Positions 27,662-40,800 of a stretch of DNA of 64,000 bases are shown here, piece after piece. The notes under the pieces are model-generated. The model saw nothing but the letters and a program-made list of their open reading frames with translations, was not told the DNA's origin and made no database searches. The DNA is taken from contig FN649749.1 in NCBI GenBank assembly GCA_000310025.1, positions 367,765-431,764 on the forward strand, read 5' to 3'. Origin of the DNA: Ectocarpus siliculosus. Lineage: Eukaryota; Sar; Phaeophyceae; Ectocarpales; Ectocarpaceae. Each line of letters starts with the position of its first letter. Within the stretch, counting starts at the first letter, position 1. The translations under genes and the position numbers were made by a program.

Positions 27662-28200
27662 TGCTCTGGACGGCCGTATGCACCGGTTTTAAATAGTGTG
27701 ATGACGGGCACTTGTGATGCAAGGAACAAGTGTCCGAGTACACGTCCCTATGATGGGCACTGGGACATTACCCATAAGTGCCCGGAGGAGGGTTCTCGAC
27801 AGATGTAACCTGGAACCAACGGAATAATTGCTATTGGCTCCACTCCCCGCGCGATGATGAAACGGTTCCTCCAACTGACGGCTGCCCCCAGCCGTCAGTG
27901 ACCTTTGTGTCCGGAAACTGAGAACGAAGCCTTTTGTGATCGAACCTGATCTGAGCGCTCCTGATCGTTATCGCAACTGTGAGTGATAAACACGCCTGAC
28001 CCTGCATGCCAGACCGGATAATAAAGTATTGGAGGAGTTGGAACCGCATGCATAATTGGAGTACCGCTGCCTGCTTGCTTGTGTTGATCACGGAACGCTT
28101 GGCATGTGTCTACACTCGAACTCAAAGAGAATAGCTAATGATCTGCGCAGGTGAGAGTGGATAACCTGGTGATAACGTCGTATAGCCCTTCTCTGGAACA
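27662..28200 (+). repeat. 5' LTR
   Basis: About 539 bp, TG...CA. It shares with the 3' LTR the long blocks around GGGCACTTGTGATGCAA, CCCTATGATGGGCACTGGGA and CTAATGATCTGCGCAGGTGA. It contains a perfect 10-bp hairpin (27875-27884 with 27889-27898, loop CCCC). The start could be shifted by a few bases, since the outermost 20 bases are poorly alike between the two LTRs. It was fixed by the TG...CA rule and the flanking CAAG repeat. Confidence 0.88.
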
Positions 28201-28231
28201 TGGTACGCGTACGGAGAATCGAACTCCGGGC
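28201..28231 (+). other. tRNA primer-binding site, unusually long
   Basis: Directly after the 5' LTR, TGGTACGCGTACGGAGAA is complementary to a tRNA 3' end: CCA, a discriminator A, a seven-base acceptor strand and a T stem. The match does not stop at 18 bases. The next bases, TCGAACTCCG, complete a full T loop and the other T-stem strand, with CGGAG and CTCCG paired around AATCGAA. The primer tRNA would start with ACGCGTA. I cannot say which isoacceptor that is. Confidence 0.8.
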
Positions 28232-28239
28232 ACAACCGT

Positions 28240-29420
28240 TGGGGGACAAAAGCCGCCACTGCCGCAGCAGCAACACCAACAGTATCAGCAGGAGCTGCAA
28301 CCCCCGCAGCGCCCGGCGCCGTACCCACAGCTGCCGGGGCAGCACCACTACCAGCAGCCGGCATACCAGCCGCCGGCGCGCCAGCCCTCCTACCCGGGGC
28401 TGCCCCTACCGCATGGGTGCCGGGGACACCGGCCCCACAGAGTGTACGGCCCACCGCAGCATGGGCATGTGCCACCTCAGCCGTACGTCGGGGCCGCCAC
28501 GCCTCACCATGTGTACGTGGAGCCCCCTGCGGCCCTCGCCAATGCGGGCCAAGCCTACCTGTCCGCCTGGAGAACCACAAGCACCGCGACAGCATCTCCT
28601 CTACAATCATACAGATGATGGGGGGCTCACCCAAAGCTGTCGGAATGCCGATCTTCCAGGGACTGCCGCTCACATCGCAAACGGACCTGACCCACCGCCA
28701 GGACCCATCCCTGTTCTGCAATCGCCTCTCCGACGCCTTCAGGATGGCGGGCATGGGCGTCATGAAGCTTGAGGAGGACGTGACTGCCGCCGCCGGTGCT
28801 TGGAACGTGATGAAGCCTTGGCCGGACGACCGCACCACCTTCCGCCTAGGCATCTTGTACGGCATGCTACCCGCCACCATGGCCGTGACGGCCTCCATCA
28901 CCCGTGGATATGACGTTCAGGTCCACAACCTCAACGGTGGCATGGCCGGGGTCAAATTCGAGCACTTCACCGTCACGGACCCCCTTCGGCTGCCCGTGTC
29001 CGAGGTTGCCCTCCAGGGGCTTTCCGGGAGCCACGAGAGGCAGGCCCTTGACCGCATCCGCCTCAAGGATGGCGAGTCGTGGGAGACCGGTCTGAGCCGC
29101 CTCGTCCAGCTCGCCCGCGCGGCGGGTGCTGCCCGACCGGCCGTACCTCGCCGAGGAGGACTGCTTCTGGATGATACTCACCGTCGAGGATCTCCACCAC
29201 CTGCTTAACCGCGCCGTCACTATGTGATTCCCGCAAGTCGACCAGGTGCCTTTTCTCGCCCACCTCGTCGGTGTCATGGGAAACAACCGGGCGGTGCTCG
29301 AGCAGTACCCCATCCACACGCACGCGCTGGGTTCGTCGCAGATGTGGCGGCGCGGGCAGATCTGCTACGACTGCTACCATAGCTTCGTCATCACCCTGAG
29401 CGAGAACTCCCAATTCTACG
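28240..29420 (+). mobile_element. Gag-like region of the LTR element
   Basis: A Pro- and Gln-rich start is followed at about 28.62-29.15 kb by a well-formed globular region with words such as PWPDDRTTFRLGILYGMLP and LPVSEVALQGLSGS. This position fits a capsid. At about 29.35 kb a short Cys/His cluster (CYDCYH) may be what remains of a nucleic-acid-binding knuckle. Assignment as gag rests on position and composition, not on a recognised family motif. Confidence 0.55.
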
Positions 29421-30329
29421 CGCGCCCCAACCGACGGACATGGCCGCCTTGCACACGAAGTCGCTGCGACTACCGCCGGGAGAAGACACCTTCTCGCGCC
29501 AGATTTGGCAGTCCGGTTCTGTCTTCGCCATGCAAGGCGTGGACTACGCCAGGCCGCCTGCGGAGGACCACATGCCTTCGTCGTCCGATTCTGGCGAGGA
29601 CGATCCAGCTTGGTGGCCTTCGAGGGTGCACGGGCCGCGCAGCGGGGGAAGACAGATCGCTTCAATGGACGGGGCTCGGGGCGTTGCGACCGCGCCCAGA
29701 GAGCTGGCCGCTATGCATCGGCGCCACTCGGGAGTGAACCCCGCAAGCGTGACCGCGACCCCCGCCCCGCCGCGGCGTCGGACGCCCCATCGAGAGACTC
29801 CAGGCGACCCCGCCGCGCCACCGAATAGCTACCACCTTCCGCGACGCGGGGGCAACCCACGCAAGCACCCCAGCTTCCGCCGGACGCGCCCTCCCCTGAT
29901 GCCGACCCTAAGGACATCCAGGCCTACATTCGCGCGCACAGAGTATGCTTCAACAGCAGTCGCAATGTGGGCGCATGGTCGAGGTTCACCACTGCCCCTG
30001 CCTGCACACCGAGACGCCCATCCCCTTCAAGGCCTACCCACGTGGCCCCCCGCCGCCGCCGGCCCTTGCGGCTCTTGGAGACTTCGACGAGAACCTCCTC
30101 TACGCCGCGGAAGCACTCTCGGCGTGGTCTAACCCGCCCCTGCCCACTCGGCGGCCGGGAACAGCCGCGAACACACCTGAGAGTGCGCCCCGGATGGTAC
30201 CTCTCCAAGGGACTCTCCGGGGAACACACCTAACCATCGCGGGCGGGAGGCAATTCGCGGAGGCAACCCGCATGACCGTCACCGCTGTGGCTCCCATGGC
30301 CGCTATGTCGGGGCCCTCCCGCGGCTCCC

Positions 30330-30720
30330 ACCAGACCTGGGTCACCGCCTGCCTGTGGAACAAGATACGCCACCGTCTGGGCTACAGTGCCACCGTGCTT
30401 CTGGACAGCGGCGCCGGAGGGGGCAACTTCTGCAGTGACAAATTCGCCCGGGCCGTCGAACGTACAGAGTACAATGGCAAACGCATCGTCTCTACGAGGG
30501 GGCGAAGCCTGCTTCGTGCACCTAACCCTTCCGACAGTGGGGTTGCGCCAATGTCAGTCGTCGGCACGGCGGTTCTTCCGTTGGTCTTCCTACCAGTGGA
30601 CCGTGTTTTCCGAGCACGACTGCGTGTAGTGGAAGGACTTCCGTTCGGGCTGATCCTGGGCGCCGCCTTTATGCGACACTACGACAGTGCATCGACTTCG
30701 CCGGCGCGGGCTCCTTCAAG
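30330..30720 (+). mobile_element. Retropepsin-like protease region of the LTR element
   Basis: The segment contains ATVLLDSGAG, matching the D-[ST]-G active-site loop of retroviral-type aspartic proteases. About 80 residues later comes GLILGAAFMRHY, matching the conserved hydrophobic-hydrophobic-G-x-x-[FL] end of the fold. It lies between the gag-like region and reverse transcriptase, as expected for Ty3/Gypsy elements. Confidence 0.8.
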
Positions 30721-31619
30721 CCGGCACCGGACGCTGGCAGCGTGCCCCTACTACCACACCGAACCCTCGGCCGTGGAGGGACCGTACCCACGCCCTCCAA
30801 CCGGATGAAGGGGACAACTGGTGCCGTGTACCAGGTTGGCAGGCCGCTAGGCTCGGCGCAAGGACCGGACGGAGGCGGTGCGTGACGACAGGGGCGATCC
30901 TACCAAGTCCCGCTGCCGCCGACCGATACGCTGGACCCACACAGGACACCTTCTGCTCCATGGAGTGGTGCACGGCGGCGCAGCAGGGAGGAGAGACAAG
31001 CGAACTACAACATCCCCGCAGCTAATGGCCACAGAGGCGCTGGAATTGGGCAAAAACTGCATGGGAGGATGGCGGTTCCTTACGCTGGCCGATGACCCTA
31101 GCGGAGCAGCAGACCGTACCCTGAAGGGTCAGCGTCGAAGTGGATGCCCTGTTGCCGGGGCCCCAGCCCCACACAGCCTAGCTGCTGGTCGTCTTCCCCC
31201 TCCGGATGTTCGACCCCCAGAGCGGACCGGGTATCCGCGTGGCCCGAGGCGTCCAGTGATGGAGACCCGGCACCCTCTCGAAGCTCAAGTTGGCCAACCG
31301 CACGACCGCCCCCAAGTCTATCGGAGCGGGTTTGCAGGTCGCCATGGCGTACGCCACCAACTGCGACGACTTGGAGAGGATGTTGCTGCTCAAGGAGCCG
31401 ACGCCGACGCCGTCGGCACAGGAGCCTGCGCCCAAGGGCGCCGCACCGCCACCGGACTCGACCGCGGAGCAAGGCATACGCGTCAGCGAGGCAAACACGG
31501 GACAACTCGGGCCCCAGTCGCCGTCCCGTGAGCTAGGGTTGTTCCCGGCCAACCCCAAGATTGTGGACGCCCTGCCGGGGCGCGAGGTGCCGATTCCGCT
31601 TGTGGACGAGAACGTCGCA

Positions 31620-32870
31620 CCAGTCGCTTGCAAACAGCAACAGTACAACCCCATTCAAGCTGAGATTGCCAACAAGCAAGTCGACCTCTGGCTGGCAACG
31701 GGTGTTGTATGCCCTTCTACTTCAGTTTGGTGCAGCCGTACTTCGATCGTGAAGAAGGACGGGAGCAACCGTGTCACGGTCGACTACCGACCACTCAACG
31801 CAGTCACGAAGAAGGACAGCGGAGGCCTCGGCACGCTGGCGACCATGCACTACCGCATCAAATGCAGCAAGCTCTTCACCCTCCTAGATTTGCCCTCGGC
31901 GTATCATCAGCTCAGTATCCGCGAGGCCGACCGCCACAAGACAGCCTTGAAGGATGCGCGTGGTCGACCTTACGAGTTTACGAGGTGCGGGTCCGGACTC
32001 ACGACCATCCCTACGATCTTCTCCGCTCACCAGGGGACACCCTTCACGACGTAGAGACCGAGGGAGGTATAAAATGATGGTTGGACGACATCCTCCCACA
32101 CAACGCCACCCTGGACGAGCACCTCGCCCTCATTGAGAAGATCTTCGACCTCTTGCGCAAGGCGGGGTACCCGGTGCATGTGTGTTCTGCATGGCGGAGG
32201 TGGAGTTCTAGGGCGTCATGGTCGGCCAAGCGGGCGGGCGACCAGCGCCCTCCAAGATCAACGCGGTGCGGGAGATGGAGATGCCCACCACCATGGGAGA
32301 AGTAAGGGCATTCCTGGGGCTTGCCGGTTTCCTGCGCCGCTTTTCCCCAACTTCCGCACCCTCACAGCGCCGACTACGGATTTGCTACGGGATGCGGCGT
32401 TCAGCTCACACCGAGCCCGCAACCGCCGCGTACCGTTGGGCACCTCGCAGACCGAGGCTTTCCGAGCAGTCTTCAGCGCCCTCATCTCCCACCCGGTGCT
32501 GGCTACACCGGATTGGGCACTTCCCTTCACCTTGCACACAGACGCCAGTGCTCACCCAGGCCGTCGAGGGACGCGACGCGCCTCTGGGGTACGCCAGCCA
32601 TCGGTTCACACGGACCGAGGAGAGACTGTGAGGTCCTCGGGATGCTGTACGGCATCGAGCAGTTCCGGACCTACCTGCAGCACCGGAGGTTCACCCTCAT
32701 TGCCGACTGCGCTGCCTTGACATGGCTGTTCACCAGCCAGAACCTTGCATCGAAGATGCACCGGTGGTCGCTACGACTTATGCAGTTCGACATTGACCTC
32801 CAATGGCGCAAGGGTGAGGACCACACCACCCCGGACGCCCTATCGCGACTCCGCTGCAAGGGACCCGGAG
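31620..32870 (+). mobile_element. Reverse transcriptase and RNase H region of the LTR element
   Basis: RT words: VKKDGSNRVTVDYRPLNAVT (the K-DG-R-C/VDYR-LN block), LFTLLDLPSAYHQLSI (the F-x-LDL-x-x-AYHQ block) and a thumb-like stretch at about 32.22-32.34 kb. RNase H/connection: about 32.5-32.86 kb, with HTDAS-type and ADCAALTWLF words, then GEDHTTPDALSRL, the typical N-x-x-AD-x-LSR end. All are hallmarks of Ty3/Gypsy pol. Confidence 0.92.
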
Positions 32871-33109
32871 CCACCAGTCAACACAGCGTTCCCCGACGAC
32901 ACCACGAGCCCGGTGGAGAACCAAGGCTCCACAGGACCTGTGCTGGATGGTGTACCGCTCAGGACCTTGACGCCCCCCACCTACGAAGGAGACGGCGACC
33001 CGGCCCCGCTGGAACCGGTGAAGACATCCAACCCGATCGAGATGATGAGCCCGTGCTCGATGGCGTTCTCTCGCCGCGCTAGGACCCACCGAGCCCTCCG
33101 GTGCACCGG

Positions 33110-34230
33110 AGATGAGTCTGGTCGTCTTCTACGCTCTTCAGCTCACACCGGAGGGCCCGGACGGTGACCTGCAGCGACTGCGAAACTACAAGGATACGCG
33201 GTCGGCCCTGGCTCCCAGACTGCCACGGGCTGTCGTCCTCGGCTGAGGAGCTGATGGAGCATTGTTTGCTCTCCAGGGCCTCCTACACATCAAGGCGGCA
33301 GTTGAACCGGATTGGATCACGTTGGAGTGCGCTCGTGTCAACAGCTGGGGCCAGAGAATCCACCTTGTGCGCTCACCCCTTTCAGGCGAGCGGTGCATGC
33401 ACACACTGGCGGAGGTGCGACCGGAGGTCCTCATCGGCAACGCTTGCCGCCGATACCACGCCTACGGCCAGGGAGAGACCGCCGCGCGCCAAGCGACGCA
33501 AATCGCTGAGACCTTCACCGCTTCTCGAGCGCAATTCCTGCTCATGGAGTGCCCCGCGGGGTTCTCGCGGTCTGGCGCGACCGCCTGCGACCATGCTTGG
33601 AGCTGGCCCGGTGCACCGTGGAGGATGCCACCCTGTATGCTACGGATGTTGGCGTCCCCACCGGGAAGCACCGAGTCTTCGTCGTGGCCATTAAGTGGCA
33701 GCCCGGCGTGATCACCGATACCTACGCGGCGAAGCTGGGCCTCTGGAAGCTACGTCTACAGCAGAGGGTAGCCACAAGCCGACCGTTGGTGAGCTACTGG
33801 GACGCCAGGGCCACTTCTTTCTGAAGCGCCCTCCCGGCCACAAAAGAGCCTTCAGCTTCGCGCAACCTACCGTCACCATCACGCACGGGATCATCATGGA
33901 TCGCCGACCGGCGGAGCACCAGCCCTACCCCGCCGACGACGGACCCCTCGCCGACGCACAGGACCTGTCACAGGAGGAGTTTGTGCACTCACCACGTCCC
34001 AGACAGTCGTCGACGTTCCGCCAAGCGTGCGACCGGTCGATGCCGCACGGACGCTCGAGGAGTTCGCCCTGCCCCCCATGCTACGGGAAGCCTTTAGCGC
34101 ACTGGGCATCCACGGCATCGTCAACCGGAACGCCGACCAGCGTGACAGCATGGACGGCGAGTTGGCGATCGCGCTGGCCAGTGTGGACATGCCCCACCGA
34201 CGACATCGCCACCGTTGACGCTGCGATCGT
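33110..34230 (+). mobile_element. C5-cytosine DNA methyltransferase-like region inside the LTR element
   Basis: Between RNase H and integrase lies about 1.1 kb that is not part of ordinary Gypsy pol. In family order I see RPEVLIGNAC (33.42-33.45 kb, motif IV-like), RAQFLLMECPAGF (about 33.53 kb, motif VI-like), ATDVGVPTGKHRVFVVAI (about 33.65 kb, a good motif VIII), QPTVTITHGIIM (about 33.87 kb, like the PTIT word of the target-recognition end) and TLEEFALPP (about 34.05 kb, motif IX-like). Spacing fits a short C5 methyltransferase. It shares the broken state of the rest of the element. The call rests on my recognition of motifs. A profile search would decide it. Confidence 0.7.
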
Positions 34231-34239
34231 CGACAAGCC

Positions 34240-34650
34240 ACGCTTCGTCGTGATCCCTTGGGTCACGAGGGGTGTGTCCCGCCGAGCCGCGCGGCCGACA
34301 CCGACACCCACCGCCGCACCGGCACCCCGGGAGACGGCGAGCACTGGCGAACGCCGCGGCCGCGGCCGCCCCCGTGAGAATGAGCCTACGCGCCGGCCAC
34401 CATCGGCCCCACATGCCATGGAACCAGGTGCAGAGGAACCCTTGGACCAGAGCCCCAACGCTGCCGCCGCACCCACCTTAGGACCGGCACCGCCACCGGC
34501 GCTGGAGCCGATACCGGACGCGGACGCCGGCCCCGCACCAGCGGCCACCGCGTCGCCGCCGTCGCCACCACCCCCGGCACCAACGGCGCCGCAAGAGACC
34601 CTCTTGGACGACAACACCCCACTGGACACACCGGAGCTACGACAAGGTCT
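34240..34650 (+). mobile_element. Pro/Ala-rich linker of the LTR element
   Basis: About 400 bases encode a low-complexity Pro-, Ala-, Thr- and Glu-rich stretch (PTPTPTAAPAP, APPPALEPIPDAD, ASPPSPPPPAP). It links the methyltransferase-like region to the integrase. It includes a basic patch (RRGRGRPRENEPTRR) that resembles an AT-hook core, GRGRP. GC content is very high. Confidence 0.6.
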
Positions 34651-36430
34651 CCACCAAGCTGGCGCAGATGGAGGACACCTTGTGCAACGCCGCGCGACTT
34701 GTGGAGGCCCAGCAACGAGACCCGACACTTCGACGTCTCCGAGCCGACTTGGGAGCGGGACAAGGAGAGGACGACGACTACATCCTAGCCAATGACAACC
34801 TGCTGTGGCACGCTCCGCGTGACCGCGCGTACGCAATTGCGGTTCCCAAAGAGTTGGTGCCCACCGTGCTGGCGCTGGTCCATGGTACGTACGGCCATCC
34901 TGGAACGGCACGCACCACTCTCTTAATTGAGCGGAAATACCACTGGCCGACCCTCAAGAAGGACGTCCAAGCCTATCTGCTATCCTACAAGTGCCACCGG
35001 CGGAAGCGTGCCTGGAGTCAGCAACTACTCATGATGCCGGCACGGATCCTTCAGCCGTTGGAGATGCTCGAAATGGACATCCAAGACCTCAAGGTAACTT
35101 CTGACAAGGGCAATCGTTACCTACTCGTGGTGGTCGACCGAGCTTCCAAGTTCCTCACGGCCTTTCCGCTCCCGTCCAAGGAAGCAATTGGGGTGAGTCG
35201 CAAACTCTTGGAGCCCCTTCTCATCTTCGGCCTACCCCTCTCCATCCGCTGCGACCCTGGTAGCGAGTTCACCGCAGAGGTGATGCAGCACCTCTGCCGC
35301 TGGCTGAAGGTGCCGCTGAACTACGGCCCTGCCAACCACCTCGCGCCCAAGGGGCGGTTGAGAGGTTGGGGGGGTGGCTGCACGAGACTCTGTCCCAGCT
35401 GTGCACCGCGTGGCCCAAGCGGTGGGACGATTTCGTGCTCGTGGCGACCTGGATCCACCGCGTTACGCCCGACGCGTCCCTGCCCGGCGGAGCGTCCCCC
35501 TACCGCATCTTCTTCGGTCGGGAACCACGCAGCCACATCGACGTGGTCACCCAAGCGCTGGACGACAGCTCTTTTGGCCGGGGACTCGAATGGACTGTCG
35601 CCGAACAACAACGAATGATCAGGAAATCCTCACCTACCGACACGAGGCCCAGAACCGCCATCGGGAACGCCACAACGCCCGAGTCGCACGGGAGGCACCT
35701 TGAGCTAAAACTGCGGTTGGAAACTACGTTCTGGTCAAGGAACCGGCCGCCACGCTACACCGGGACAGTCACCACCCGAAGCTCACCCACGACCACTACA
35801 CCGGCCCGTGGAAAGTCACCGAGGTCATCCACGACCGTCTGAGCTTCGCGGTGCAGCTCAACCGTCGCCGGATCTGCCGATGCAAGGTTGCAGCACCTGA
35901 TTTCAAGCCCTACCATACGCGGCCGCAAGATCTTCGGCTGCCGTTCGAGGATGAGTTTGCCCATGTGGTGTGGCCGCCTGACCTCGGCCTGGCCGACATC
36001 TCCGTCGATGCCGTGCCGCTGTACACGCTAGTGGACAAACGGGCGGTACACGGTGCCGACAACACTCCGACGTGGACCTGGGAGTACCAAGGTCGCTACC
36101 AGGACGGTGCTCTCTCACCTTGGCTGACCGAGGACGAGGCCGGCGACAGCTATTCGCCGCTCGAGCTGGACATCTTCCACGCACTGTACGAGTTGTACCA
36201 CGGTGAGAACGCCGCCCCACGACCCGCTGGACCGCCCACTCGGGGCGAACGCGAAGTGGCGTCCAGGGAACAGGCACTGCAGCTCGTCCCCGTTGGTAAC
36301 AGGTTGGCCGTGAATTCGCCGACAGCGAGGACCACCTCAAGGTTTTCAAGGCCACCGTCTTCGACTACTGCGACCCTTACTGGTGCGTGGAGTACCCGGA
36401 TGGAGATTGGGAGGTTTAGGCGCCGTACGG
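34650..36430 (+). mobile_element. Integrase and chromo/Tudor-like tail of the LTR element
   Basis: The zinc-binding part has HGTYGHPGTARTTLLIERKYHW, with the H-x-x-x-H and later Cys of the HHCC module. The catalytic core shows MDIQDLKV, YLLVVVDRASKFLTAFPL and SIRCDPGSEFTAEV, the D,D block of a DDE integrase, and beyond it HETLSQLC-type words. At about 35.8 kb YTGPWKVTEVIHDRLSFAV matches the GPY/F module. Two further small domains follow: TWTWEYQGRYQDGALSPW (about 36.1 kb, chromodomain-like) and DYCDPYWCVEYPDGDWEV (about 36.37-36.42 kb, Tudor-like). Such tails are typical of chromatin-targeting Gypsy elements. Confidence 0.85.
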
Positions 36431-36465
36431 CCGCCCTGTTGGCATAGTCGTGTACCACGGTCTAT

Positions 36466-36475
36466 GCTGGGGGGA
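36466..36475 (+). other. Polypurine tract of the LTR element
   Basis: GCTGGGGGGA directly abuts the TG that opens the 3' LTR at 36476, the normal place for the plus-strand primer. The tract is short but well positioned. Confidence 0.7.
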
Positions 36476-36858
36476 TGTTCGTATGCTGTCCAGATGCACC
36501 GGTTCTAAATAGTGTGATCACGGGCACTTGTGATGCAAGAACAAGTGTCCTGAGTACACGTCCCTATGATGGGCACTGGGACATTACCCATAAGTGCCCG
36601 GAAGGGGGGTTCTCGACAGATGTAACCTGGAACCAACGGAATAATTGCTATTGGTTCCGTTTCCCGCGCGATGATGAAACGGTTCCTCCGACTGACGGCT
36701 GCCCCCAGCATAATTGGAGTACCGCTGCCTGCTCGCGTGTGTTGATCACGGAACGCTTGGCATGTGTCTACAATCGAACTCATAGAGAATAGCTAATGAT
36801 CTGCGCAGGTGAGAGTGGATAACCTGGTGATAACGTAGTTTAGCCCTTCTCTTGAACA
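36476..36858 (+). repeat. 3' LTR
   Basis: About 383 bp, ending TTCTCTTGAACA, followed by the CAAG target duplicate. It matches the 5' LTR over about 365 aligned bases with some 17 substitutions by my count. It is shorter than the 5' copy. The first 20 bases are the least certain part. Confidence 0.88.
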
Positions 36859-37872: not shown

Positions 37873-40800
37873 TCAAAAGTTTTCCAATTCTTCGAAGAGG
37901 GCATTTTCTTCCGCGCTGAGAGGCGGAGAGTCGTCCTCTACGGATTCAGGATAGCTCTCGAAGTTAGACGTATCACCCAGTCCCTGCACCTTAGGTAGGA
38001 AAGGCGCCTCCACCTGTACCAGTAACCCGAGAGCAATTGTACAATCAGGGAATGCTACGAATTGGTGCACCAGTGCATAGAGTTCTTCAATCGTACCAAA
38101 GTATGAAACCAGCGTTTACATTGGCCGAGGGTTCTACATACAAATAATGCACCGTGGTTGTCGTGTTGTCTTGAATGAAATGAACAAGTGGTTGTTCTCG
38201 AGTATTTGACTGTACCGTAACCGATATAGCATCAAAGCACTGTACCTGCCCATTGTACACTGCCTCCCAGTCTATGCCGTGGAACCATTTGTGCTCCTTT
38301 ACCGCCCGCGACCCCCCCTTCATGCACCCTGTTTTCGTCCGCGTGCGTCGGAGTCAAGCGTGACGCAAGACAAGTCAGCAGCGCGCCCATTGCACGACGG
38401 TATGCAGAAGACGGGTTCTTTGGATAAAGTTCGAGGTGCAGCACGATGCCACCAATACCTCGGCGAACGATTAGAGAAAAAGAAATATACTCTGCGATGG
38501 ATATACTGGGTGTATTGCATTGACCGATTCAACAAGATAGCCCATCTGAATCCGTGGTCACAGCGTGCGTAGAGCACGAAGTTCAGTGCTTGACCAAGAA
38601 CAAGCAAGGGGGAGACAAAAACCAAAAGGACGTCCTCTATGGACCTTGACGCGTTAATGGGCGTGGAGATTGCTGGTTGGGAAAAGCCGTTTTCAGGGCT
38701 GGCCACTTTCTAGATCATTTACTCCGGTATGGTTTAATGTACGCATGATTTAACTAACCTGCCCACTGGATGGGGATTTCAACGCCGTTAAACAAGGGAT
38801 ACCGGTCGATGGTATTTACATAGTGCATTCATCTGTAGGCGAGGACAGTAAATGGAGTACATGACTGTACTACTACCCGCGGCACCTTTGCCTTGAAAAT
38901 AGGATACTACTACTGTAACATCAAGCGCCGTCTTACCCAGGCGGCTGGTACGGTCGATGGTGAGTAGCCGCTTAATAATGTCCTTCGCTTTACTATCCAC
39001 ATGACGAGGGATGTCCAGCTTGCCCGCCAAGATCTTCTGGTAGATCCCGATCGGGTTTTCGTCGTAAAAGGGGGGGAATCTGTGCGCGGGGAAACACGCG
39101 GAAAGGCGACGATGTATGCTTCGCGCCAAAGCAATGGACCCTCGTTATGGCTCTACTCAAGTCGGTGTGCCAAACACATGGCGACCTCGCCCTAAAAAAC
39201 TGCCCTACTAACGCAACCAGGATGCGTTGCCCTCTAGACTATCACAGCTGAAATTACCGTGTAAGGTGTGTCTCTAGCGGGGAAGTGTTTCGGAATGTCT
39301 CCCATCACAAACTCCGAGAAAGGCCTTCCCGCGCCCTCCGAATCACCACTTGCCTGCCCACGGGTGCTTGTCCCTGCCCCCTATAGGTGTTTGCCGATGC
39401 TTTAAGCTTTATTTCATTCATTTTTTTAGATCGTTCGTGGGGATGCTACGTTTTGAGATTCACGACACGCAGTCTATGCTGCATGGGACGCTCAGCGCAC
39501 GATCAACTCGTACTGTAGGCCAAAACGACGTTCATTCTACATACCAAGCATCGGGTGGCAAAGAAGACGTATCCTCTTACCCAGCAAGCATCTCGTGAAT
39601 GAGCACCCCCAGCGCCCACCAGTCGACCGATCGGCCGTGCCCTTTGCTCTGGCGGGACGATGAAAAAAGGGGCGGTGAGAATAAGTTGCCGACTGCTTTA
39701 CTATATTAACGGGTACTCTCTGCATGATGCCATTGAAGTGTGGCCTGGTCTTTGGTGATGACTCCAGACACATCCGGATACTGTGAAGATGCCCTCCAAT
39801 GATAAGCAGTGTTGTCATTGTACTATAGTACAACTGACCTGGATGATTTCGGGCGCAAGGTATTCGGGGGTCCCGCATAGAGTCCATGTCCTGCAAGGAG
39901 AAGAGACAACCGCAAGATTGAAATAGCGGATATGGGCAGGCAGTTGCAAGATGTTGCGCCGAGAAGTGGATAGAACAAGTACGAAACCACAGTGTGCACG
40001 GTTGTAGCCCTTTGTGAGGGAACAACGCTGGCTGTCCATGACAACCCGTCGACAAGCACCTCGGCACGTTGGTAAGCCAAATATGCATAGAGAATCGTGA
40101 GTAGAACGCACCACCTAGACAATCCAGACTCGTAACACTGGCCCGGGACTTGGCAGGACGGACTTGTGGTGGCTAGACCACTGTGTCAATTAGCTATTGC
40201 TCCTCGTGAAGCACCGTTTCGTCACACTCTTGTCCTCACCGATCCTCGACAACCTTGGCGAAGCCAAAGTCAGTCACCTTGATCCGCCCCTCTCGTGTGA
40301 TGAGGAGGTTCTGGTTCACAAGAAAAACTACTCAGTCAGTTGCATGTAGTCGGACTAAGGGGCTGCAGTTCGGATGGTGTTTAGGCGCTAGGGGTGTTGC
40401 GCAACTCGCATTAGAAAAAAGGAAATCACACGCACAAATTAGACTACCAGGCACGGGGAAGGTGCAAACGTTGTGATAGGAACTCGAGGCAACGAAGACA
40501 CATTAATAAACGATTACTCAACTTGTAGGCATGCTTCAGTTTGGGCGTGGCCCGCTTACGTTGGGTGTGTAAAAAAAACGGAACCAGCCCAAACATTGGC
40601 TGCATCTGACCTGTTCAGTACGATTTTCTCCAGTTTCTTTTACGGGTGACAACGACACAGTTCTCTCTGGACATGTTGCTCGAGTCACTCTTTTACTTGT
40701 TCTGCGGGACGATACCGAGGATCAACTGCGACAGGAAGTCAACACACCTCGGGCTTGAGATCACGGTAGACCACGTTAAGACTATGCAGATAGGAGAAAG

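Follow-up and report, generated by a model that had tools for sequence, protein, structure and literature searches.

A C5-methyltransferase-like domain without the catalytic Pro-Cys in the Pol region of Ty3/Gypsy retrotransposons of Ectocarpus siliculosus

What is a region resembling a cytosine methyltransferase doing inside a retrotransposon of a brown alga? The question is raised by a 64,000-nucleotide stretch of Ectocarpus siliculosus contig FN649749.1 (assembly GCA_000310025.1, positions 367,765 to 431,764, forward strand), hereafter the window. In it a single Ty3/Gypsy element, broken by many frameshifts and stops, spans 27679-36858. Here, we report that this element and its relatives carry a domain with a predicted C5-methyltransferase fold, which has a constant position in Pol, has lost the Pro-Cys of motif IV, has kept the residues expected to line the S-adenosylmethionine (SAM) pocket and the motif VI Glu, and is under purifying selection. 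With moderate confidence, we interpret it as a C5-methyltransferase-derived Pol domain, in Ty3/Gypsy elements with a Tudor-like end, that probably no longer methylates but still works as a nucleic-acid-binding, perhaps SAM-binding, pseudoenzyme.

A predicted C5-methyltransferase fold between RNase H and integrase

A sequence-only reading of the window had noticed methyltransferase motif words, in the right order, between the RNase H and integrase regions, and tblastn with relatives bears this out, locating the domain at 33220-34098. It lies in three frames, in pieces at 33220-33579, 33573-33953, 33779-33985 and 33988-34098, the first of which is 79% identical to P0001, a protein from the same genome; motif I of the window copy has one stop and a Gly-to-Asp change. 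The words that had been assigned to motifs IV, VI, VIII and IX are real, but that of motif IV lacks the catalytic Pro-Cys. Motif I and the acid-Trp of motif II, which were not on that list, are present as well. The motif names are those that we presume to apply to these words.

The standard family profile misses the domain because the domain scores below its cut-off. The PF00145 test that had been suggested for the raw region gave no match, five window open reading frames (ORFs) having none at E values up to 10, and there was none in polyproteins P0001-P0003. When the domains of relatives were cut out, PF00145 matched three of five members below its gathering score of 22 bits (best E value 0.14), and TIGR00675 (dcm, NCBIfam) matched two of five, also below threshold (best 0.051). 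A sequence profile search of the PDB returned three weak unrelated rows and no C5 enzyme.

Comparison of profile with profile gave a different picture. Alignment of 10 domain sequences to 35 C5 enzymes by hhalign gave a score of 53.35; the best of 200 column shuffles reached 10.68 and the reversed control 3.06. The reference enzymes carry the PC[QP] and EN[VP] motifs by construction, because an ORF filter required them (six of the 40 fetched loci, L164, L169, L170, L171, L185 and L186, failed it); Dcm was added to the set. For the structures of relatives predicted with AlphaFold, all PDB matches listed are C5 methyltransferases, and in these models the C5-methyltransferase fold covers the whole domain. 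DNMT3 is not among the structural matches listed, which is no evidence against kinship with it. Sequence identity is about 12% to M.HhaI and about 10-12% to bacterial, viral and eukaryotic C5 enzymes. A scan of viral_contigs with the domain alignment (A3) found no viral source with a kept nucleophile, a weak negative.

Could the resemblance be due to chance, or the region be an unrelated insert? Such an explanation would suit the sub-threshold PF00145 scores of the scanned relatives and the PDB search devoid of C5 enzymes, but the profile-profile score is five times that of the best shuffle, two predicted models match the fold, and the domain has a constant position and is present lineage-wide. 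With the shuffles and the two fold matches in hand, we rule this explanation out unless both predicted models are wrong, its probability being negligible. By the predicted models, the domain has a C5-methyltransferase fold. Against this stand the Pfam, NCBIfam and PDB sequence searches, all below significance, the low-confidence target-recognition region of model 1, and rows 33-50 of the BFVD matches, which include replicases and other methyltransferases.

The motif IV position and the methylation of the host

Protein searches returned 7, 2 and 17 proteins, seven of the 17 already in earlier sets; several are gene models with pieces missing. Motif IV was located in 16 of the 24 proteins examined (no match in P0005, P0011, P0012, P0015, P0017, P0019, P0021 and P0023), P0001-P0004 from the window's own genome among them, and Pro-Cys is absent from all 16. 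The usual Cys position is occupied by Arg in eight, Cys in three, Lys in two, and Ala, Asn and Trp in one each. In a motif table of own-genome copies with at least 55% identity to a query, NAC usually precedes Arg, Ala or some other residue, and Pro-Cys never appears. The rest of the site is a different matter: G20, G22 and G23 (GxGG of motif I) and D41 and W42 (motif II) of the SAM site, as well as E120, the motif VI Glu, are invariant in nine of nine relatives, SAM-site residues being altered in some broken copies. The domain set excludes P0011 and P0012, in which the domain is partly missing; P0004 and P0005 represent additional frames from the own genome, and P0015-P0024 enter only the motif IV count and the count of domain order given below.

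Three observations weigh against the pseudoenzyme reading. Cys-Cys replaces Pro-Cys in three of the 16 proteins and in one broken own-genome copy, and with the nucleophile position thus filled by Cys in these few, some copies may be active. The nucleophile position was counted gap-free from the preceding strand, and hhalign has a gap there in the P0003 clade. Finally, the motif VIII Arg is found in eight of nine relatives, P0014 having Lys.

An HxxDxG stretch (positions 247-252 of the first row of the A3 alignment) is also invariant in nine of nine domain sequences; we know of no role for it in C5 methyltransferases.

As for the host, a PF00145 search of the genome found only two pieces, about 2 kb apart, belonging to one gene. 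This gene, L052, is multi-exon and lies on the minus strand at G000:C2:8121500-8131400. The open frames around the pieces hold PPCQ, ENV and GIPNSRLRYY, and we take it to be DNMT2-like. The premise that the genome has no other C5 DNA methyltransferase thus held in this search. The observed/expected CpG ratio, 0.97 in the element and 0.94-0.97 in its flanks, shows no trace of long CpG methylation; in three other loci it is 0.83-1.00 (L034 lowest). The proposal that the element brought a working methyltransferase of its own is not supported, with Pro-Cys in none of the 16 proteins and none of the own-genome copies in the motif table, and no CpG depletion in the element. In the accessible parts of the literature, brown algae are described as having no DNA methyltransferase except DNMT2 homologues among those sought, and Schizocladia as having DNMT1 and high CG 5-methylcytosine (5mCG) (PMC13076208); 5-methylcytosine (5mC) is negligible in Ectocarpus (PMC12477816), and E. 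siliculosus is termed a species without DNMTs and 5mC (PMC11244446).

Might the domain nevertheless be active, using a nucleophile other than the canonical one (a Cys one residue earlier, or Cys-Cys) to methylate the element's cDNA or an RNA? The methyltransferase retroelements of dinoflagellates and charophytes are reportedly, according to the abstract describing them, capable of CG methylation de novo. A Cys stands before or at the site in 13 of the 16 proteins, the SAM-site residues are kept, and key residues are kept in the Symbiodinium and Klebsormidium elements (accessible text of PMC5890265). However, neither position holds a Cys in P0003, P0013 and P0014, and the nucleophile position is free to vary, while the element's CpG ratio of 0.97, the 12 transitions and 12 transversions between its long terminal repeats (LTRs), and the negligible 5mC of Ectocarpus all speak against such an enzyme. 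We consider it improbable.

Even less probable, in our view, is that SAM binding was kept and some other chemistry, or a SAM-sensing role, gained. That the nucleophile position varies while GxGG, DW and the motif VI Glu do not would fit this, as would the invariant HxxDxG, but to our knowledge no Cys-less enzyme of this fold performs other nucleic-acid chemistry. The lost Pro-Cys, the kept SAM site and motif VI Glu, and the purifying selection described next therefore give the domain the look of a retained pseudo-methyltransferase.

Selection on the domain, the element and its lineage

Ratios of nonsynonymous to synonymous substitution (dN/dS, or omega; NG86) were estimated for 60 pairs of chosen copies with enough aligned codons, 58 of which were computable for the domain. 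The 95% bootstrap confidence interval of the domain omega lies below 1 in 49 of these 58 pairs. In six older pairs (L034 with L039, L043 and L049; L033 with L044 and L046; L036 with L046) omega is 0.15-0.34 for the domain; it is 0.07-0.31 for reverse transcriptase (RT)-RNase H, over five of these pairs, and 0.04-0.18 for integrase. The domain is thus under purifying selection. Several points temper this: the interval reaches 1 in nine of the 58 pairs, mostly those with small dS; dN of the domain exceeds that of integrase in 21 of 21 pairs of the window's subfamily (the comparison is mixed in other subfamilies); the pairs are not independent, since copies recur among them; dS approaches saturation in the deepest pairs; and stops occur in several of the copies.

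Those 21 pairs, together with the lost nucleophile and the many broken copies, are what one would expect of a decaying passenger, a once-active enzyme that is now a neutral or mildly useful spacer. This is rather unlikely, since omega is below 1 with its interval in most pairs, the full fold and the SAM-site residues are kept across clades at about 33-39% domain identity, and some copies have open frames through domain and integrase. The description of the element as an old broken copy accordingly suits the copy in the window but not the family, in which the domain is under purifying selection and three long open frames run through integrase (P0001, 1649 residues, without the start of RT; P0002, 1807; P0003, 1943).

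The order RT-RNase H-integrase between LTRs makes the element of the window a Ty3/Gypsy LTR retrotransposon, with the following parts.

27679..28200, plus strand: 5' LTR, TG...CA (repeat pairs D1-D3, alignment)
28201..28229, plus strand: primer-binding-site-like stretch with a TGG start, like a tRNA 3' end and T arm (direct reading)
28651..29428, plus strand: gag-like region with one frameshift and one stop (tblastn with P0009)
29880..30088, plus strand: gag CCCH-like zinc-finger region, broken (tblastn with P0009; zinc finger by eye)
30290..30796, plus strand: aspartic-protease-like region, LLDSGAGGGNF (tblastn with P0009 and P0010; protease by eye)
31722..32280, plus strand: reverse transcriptase, three frames (tblastn; PF00078 E value 5.1e-5 in one piece, below the PF00078 cut-off)
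32439..32863, plus strand: RNase H, three frames (tblastn; PF17917 in relatives)
33220..34098, plus strand: predicted C5-methyltransferase-fold domain without the Pro-Cys nucleophile, frameshifts and one stop (tblastn, hhalign, AlphaFold and VIA-align of relatives, motif table)
34099..34820, plus strand: proline-rich linker from domain to integrase (tblastn with P0001)
34824..35587, plus strand: integrase, H2C2 zinc domain and rve core (PF17921 1.3e-11, PF00665 9.1e-10; tblastn)
35620..36413, plus strand: integrase C-terminal region with a Tudor-like end, DPYW.VEYPDGDWE (tblastn)
36495..36858, plus strand: 3' LTR (repeat pairs, alignment)

The two LTRs are 93.4% identical over 363 aligned columns (Kimura two-parameter distance 0.069), and about 159 bases of the 5' LTR, at 27891-28049, have no counterpart in the 3' LTR. 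We saw no target-site duplication where the two LTRs end, a tRNA gene search of the window found none and no tRNA was matched to the primer-binding-like stretch, and a Pfam scan gave no protease match for 30290-30796. The Tudor-like stretch is matched by PF21743 only below threshold in relatives (E values 0.0038-1.5), a point against the reading given below. Downstream of the element, protein-kinase-like pieces lie on the minus strand at 38791-39144 and 39818-40114, apparently a gene with introns, PF00069 matching one of them below threshold (E value 0.021) and the other not at all.

How widespread is this arrangement? Within the 189.5-Mb assembly of the same genome, there are at least 55 matches to a 154-residue piece from the window, and searches with the domains of two subfamilies gave at least 87 and at least 67 matches. 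Merged by hand, these correspond to at least about 53 domain places (54 merged entries, or 53 if two neighboring C16 pieces are one). The only relatives with an organism name, P0011, P0017, P0018 and P0020, are proteins of Ectocarpus sp. CCAP 1310/34. The order RNase H-domain-integrase is found in 16 of 16 proteins that show all three, whole or in part, among the 24 examined; related copies, the own-genome places included, thus carry the domain in the same position. The presence of the domain follows integrase similarity. When 102 of 152 listed rows (at least 42% identity) were merged to 70 integrase places, a domain lay upstream, on the same strand, at 32 of the 41 places with a mean identity of at least 56% (some of the other nine are short fragments), versus four of the 29 below 56%, among the own-genome matches listed. 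The domain is therefore mostly a trait of one lineage, and trees of RT and of the domain for nine proteins give the same three clades, between which domain identity is about 33-39%.

A sister Gypsy integrase lineage (about 48-53% identity, at least 12 places) has no domain match, with which true absence and divergence are both compatible. It is found on G000 C150, C227, C156, C141, C120, C14, C165, C16:6699549, C88, C19 and C21, where integrase identity is 48-51% and several copies have long open frames.

Known systems and a possible role

Methyltransferase-bearing retroelements are already known (PMC5890265, PMC12344493), and DNA-methylase retrotransposons in stramenopiles have been named in general terms (PMC6338049), in the accessible parts of these papers. 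The closest parallel, described in the accessible text of PMC5890265, is KnitGypsy-Dnmt3 of Klebsormidium nitens, which also has a C5-methyltransferase domain in a Gypsy-type Pol under purifying selection (Ka/Ks < 0.2). However, its domain is of Dnmt3 type with conserved key residues, its repeats are DIRS-like and its host methylates, whereas the elements described here have lost Pro-Cys, have ordinary LTRs and inhabit a host group without reported 5mC; we claim no DNMT3 affinity for them. LINE-Dnmt and DIRS-Dnmt3 of Symbiodinium are likewise retroelements with captured C5 methyltransferases, but of other classes and with conserved key methyltransferase positions (PMC5890265). For Ectocarpus itself, Tudor, chromo and NADAR domains have been reported in Gypsy Pol, and the C-terminal Tudor domain of Gypsy-10_Ec32 can be set alongside our Tudor-like end by description only (PMC12477816). 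In its accessible text, that paper does not use the words "methylase" or "DNMT" and uses "methyltransferase" twice, at least once for Sola1. The accessory protein of Sola1-1_Ec32 resembles our case in placing a DNA-methyltransferase domain on an Ectocarpus transposon, but the transposon is a DNA transposon and the enzyme a predicted N4-cytosine/N6-adenine one with a ParB domain (PMC12477816).

In the literature available to us, mostly titles and openings of abstracts with subscription journals mostly outside, we found no report of a brown-algal Gypsy C5-methyltransferase domain or of a stripped version. Methyltransferase-bearing Gypsy elements are known; against that literature, the catalytically stripped but selected version is a new form of them.

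From M.HhaI, DNMT1 and DNMT2 the domain differs in having no motif IV Pro-Cys, in its low identity (about 12% to M.HhaI) and in residing inside a retroelement polyprotein. DNMT3L, a vertebrate host protein with the methyltransferase fold but no activity of its own, is kept for binding, as a partner of active DNMT3. It may illustrate a possible working mode, with the difference that no active partner was found here; kinship is not claimed.

To judge from its sequence features, the domain has most likely lost cytosine methylation while retaining a function; it would bind nucleic acid, perhaps with SAM, and may play a part in integration. A C5 methyltransferase would have been taken into Pol, in the interval between RNase H and integrase, by a Ty3/Gypsy lineage whose tail is Tudor-like; in some retroviruses a dUTPase occupies a comparable position. 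The ancestor may have been active while its hosts had 5mC, and the nucleophile may have been lost together with the brown-algal loss of DNA methylation. The present pseudoenzyme would travel in the particle with RT/RNase H and integrase, bind cDNA or target DNA but leave it unmodified and, jointly with the Tudor-like module at the C terminus, aid integrase in holding or choosing its target. We put forward tentatively, as quite possible, that a captured methyltransferase has thus been turned into a catalytically silent SAM/DNA-binding module for replication or target choice, which selection has maintained in a host group without DNA methylation while the domains diverged to about 35% identity.

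These findings extend methyltransferase capture by Gypsy elements to algae without 5mC, and indicate that the fold can stay under selection after its usual catalytic residues are gone. Whether the elements lost the nucleophile alongside their hosts' loss of methylation is now a testable question, and any copies present in Schizocladia and Tribonema should settle it. If the silent-module reading is true, the domain would be a fossil of a lost methylome with a new job.
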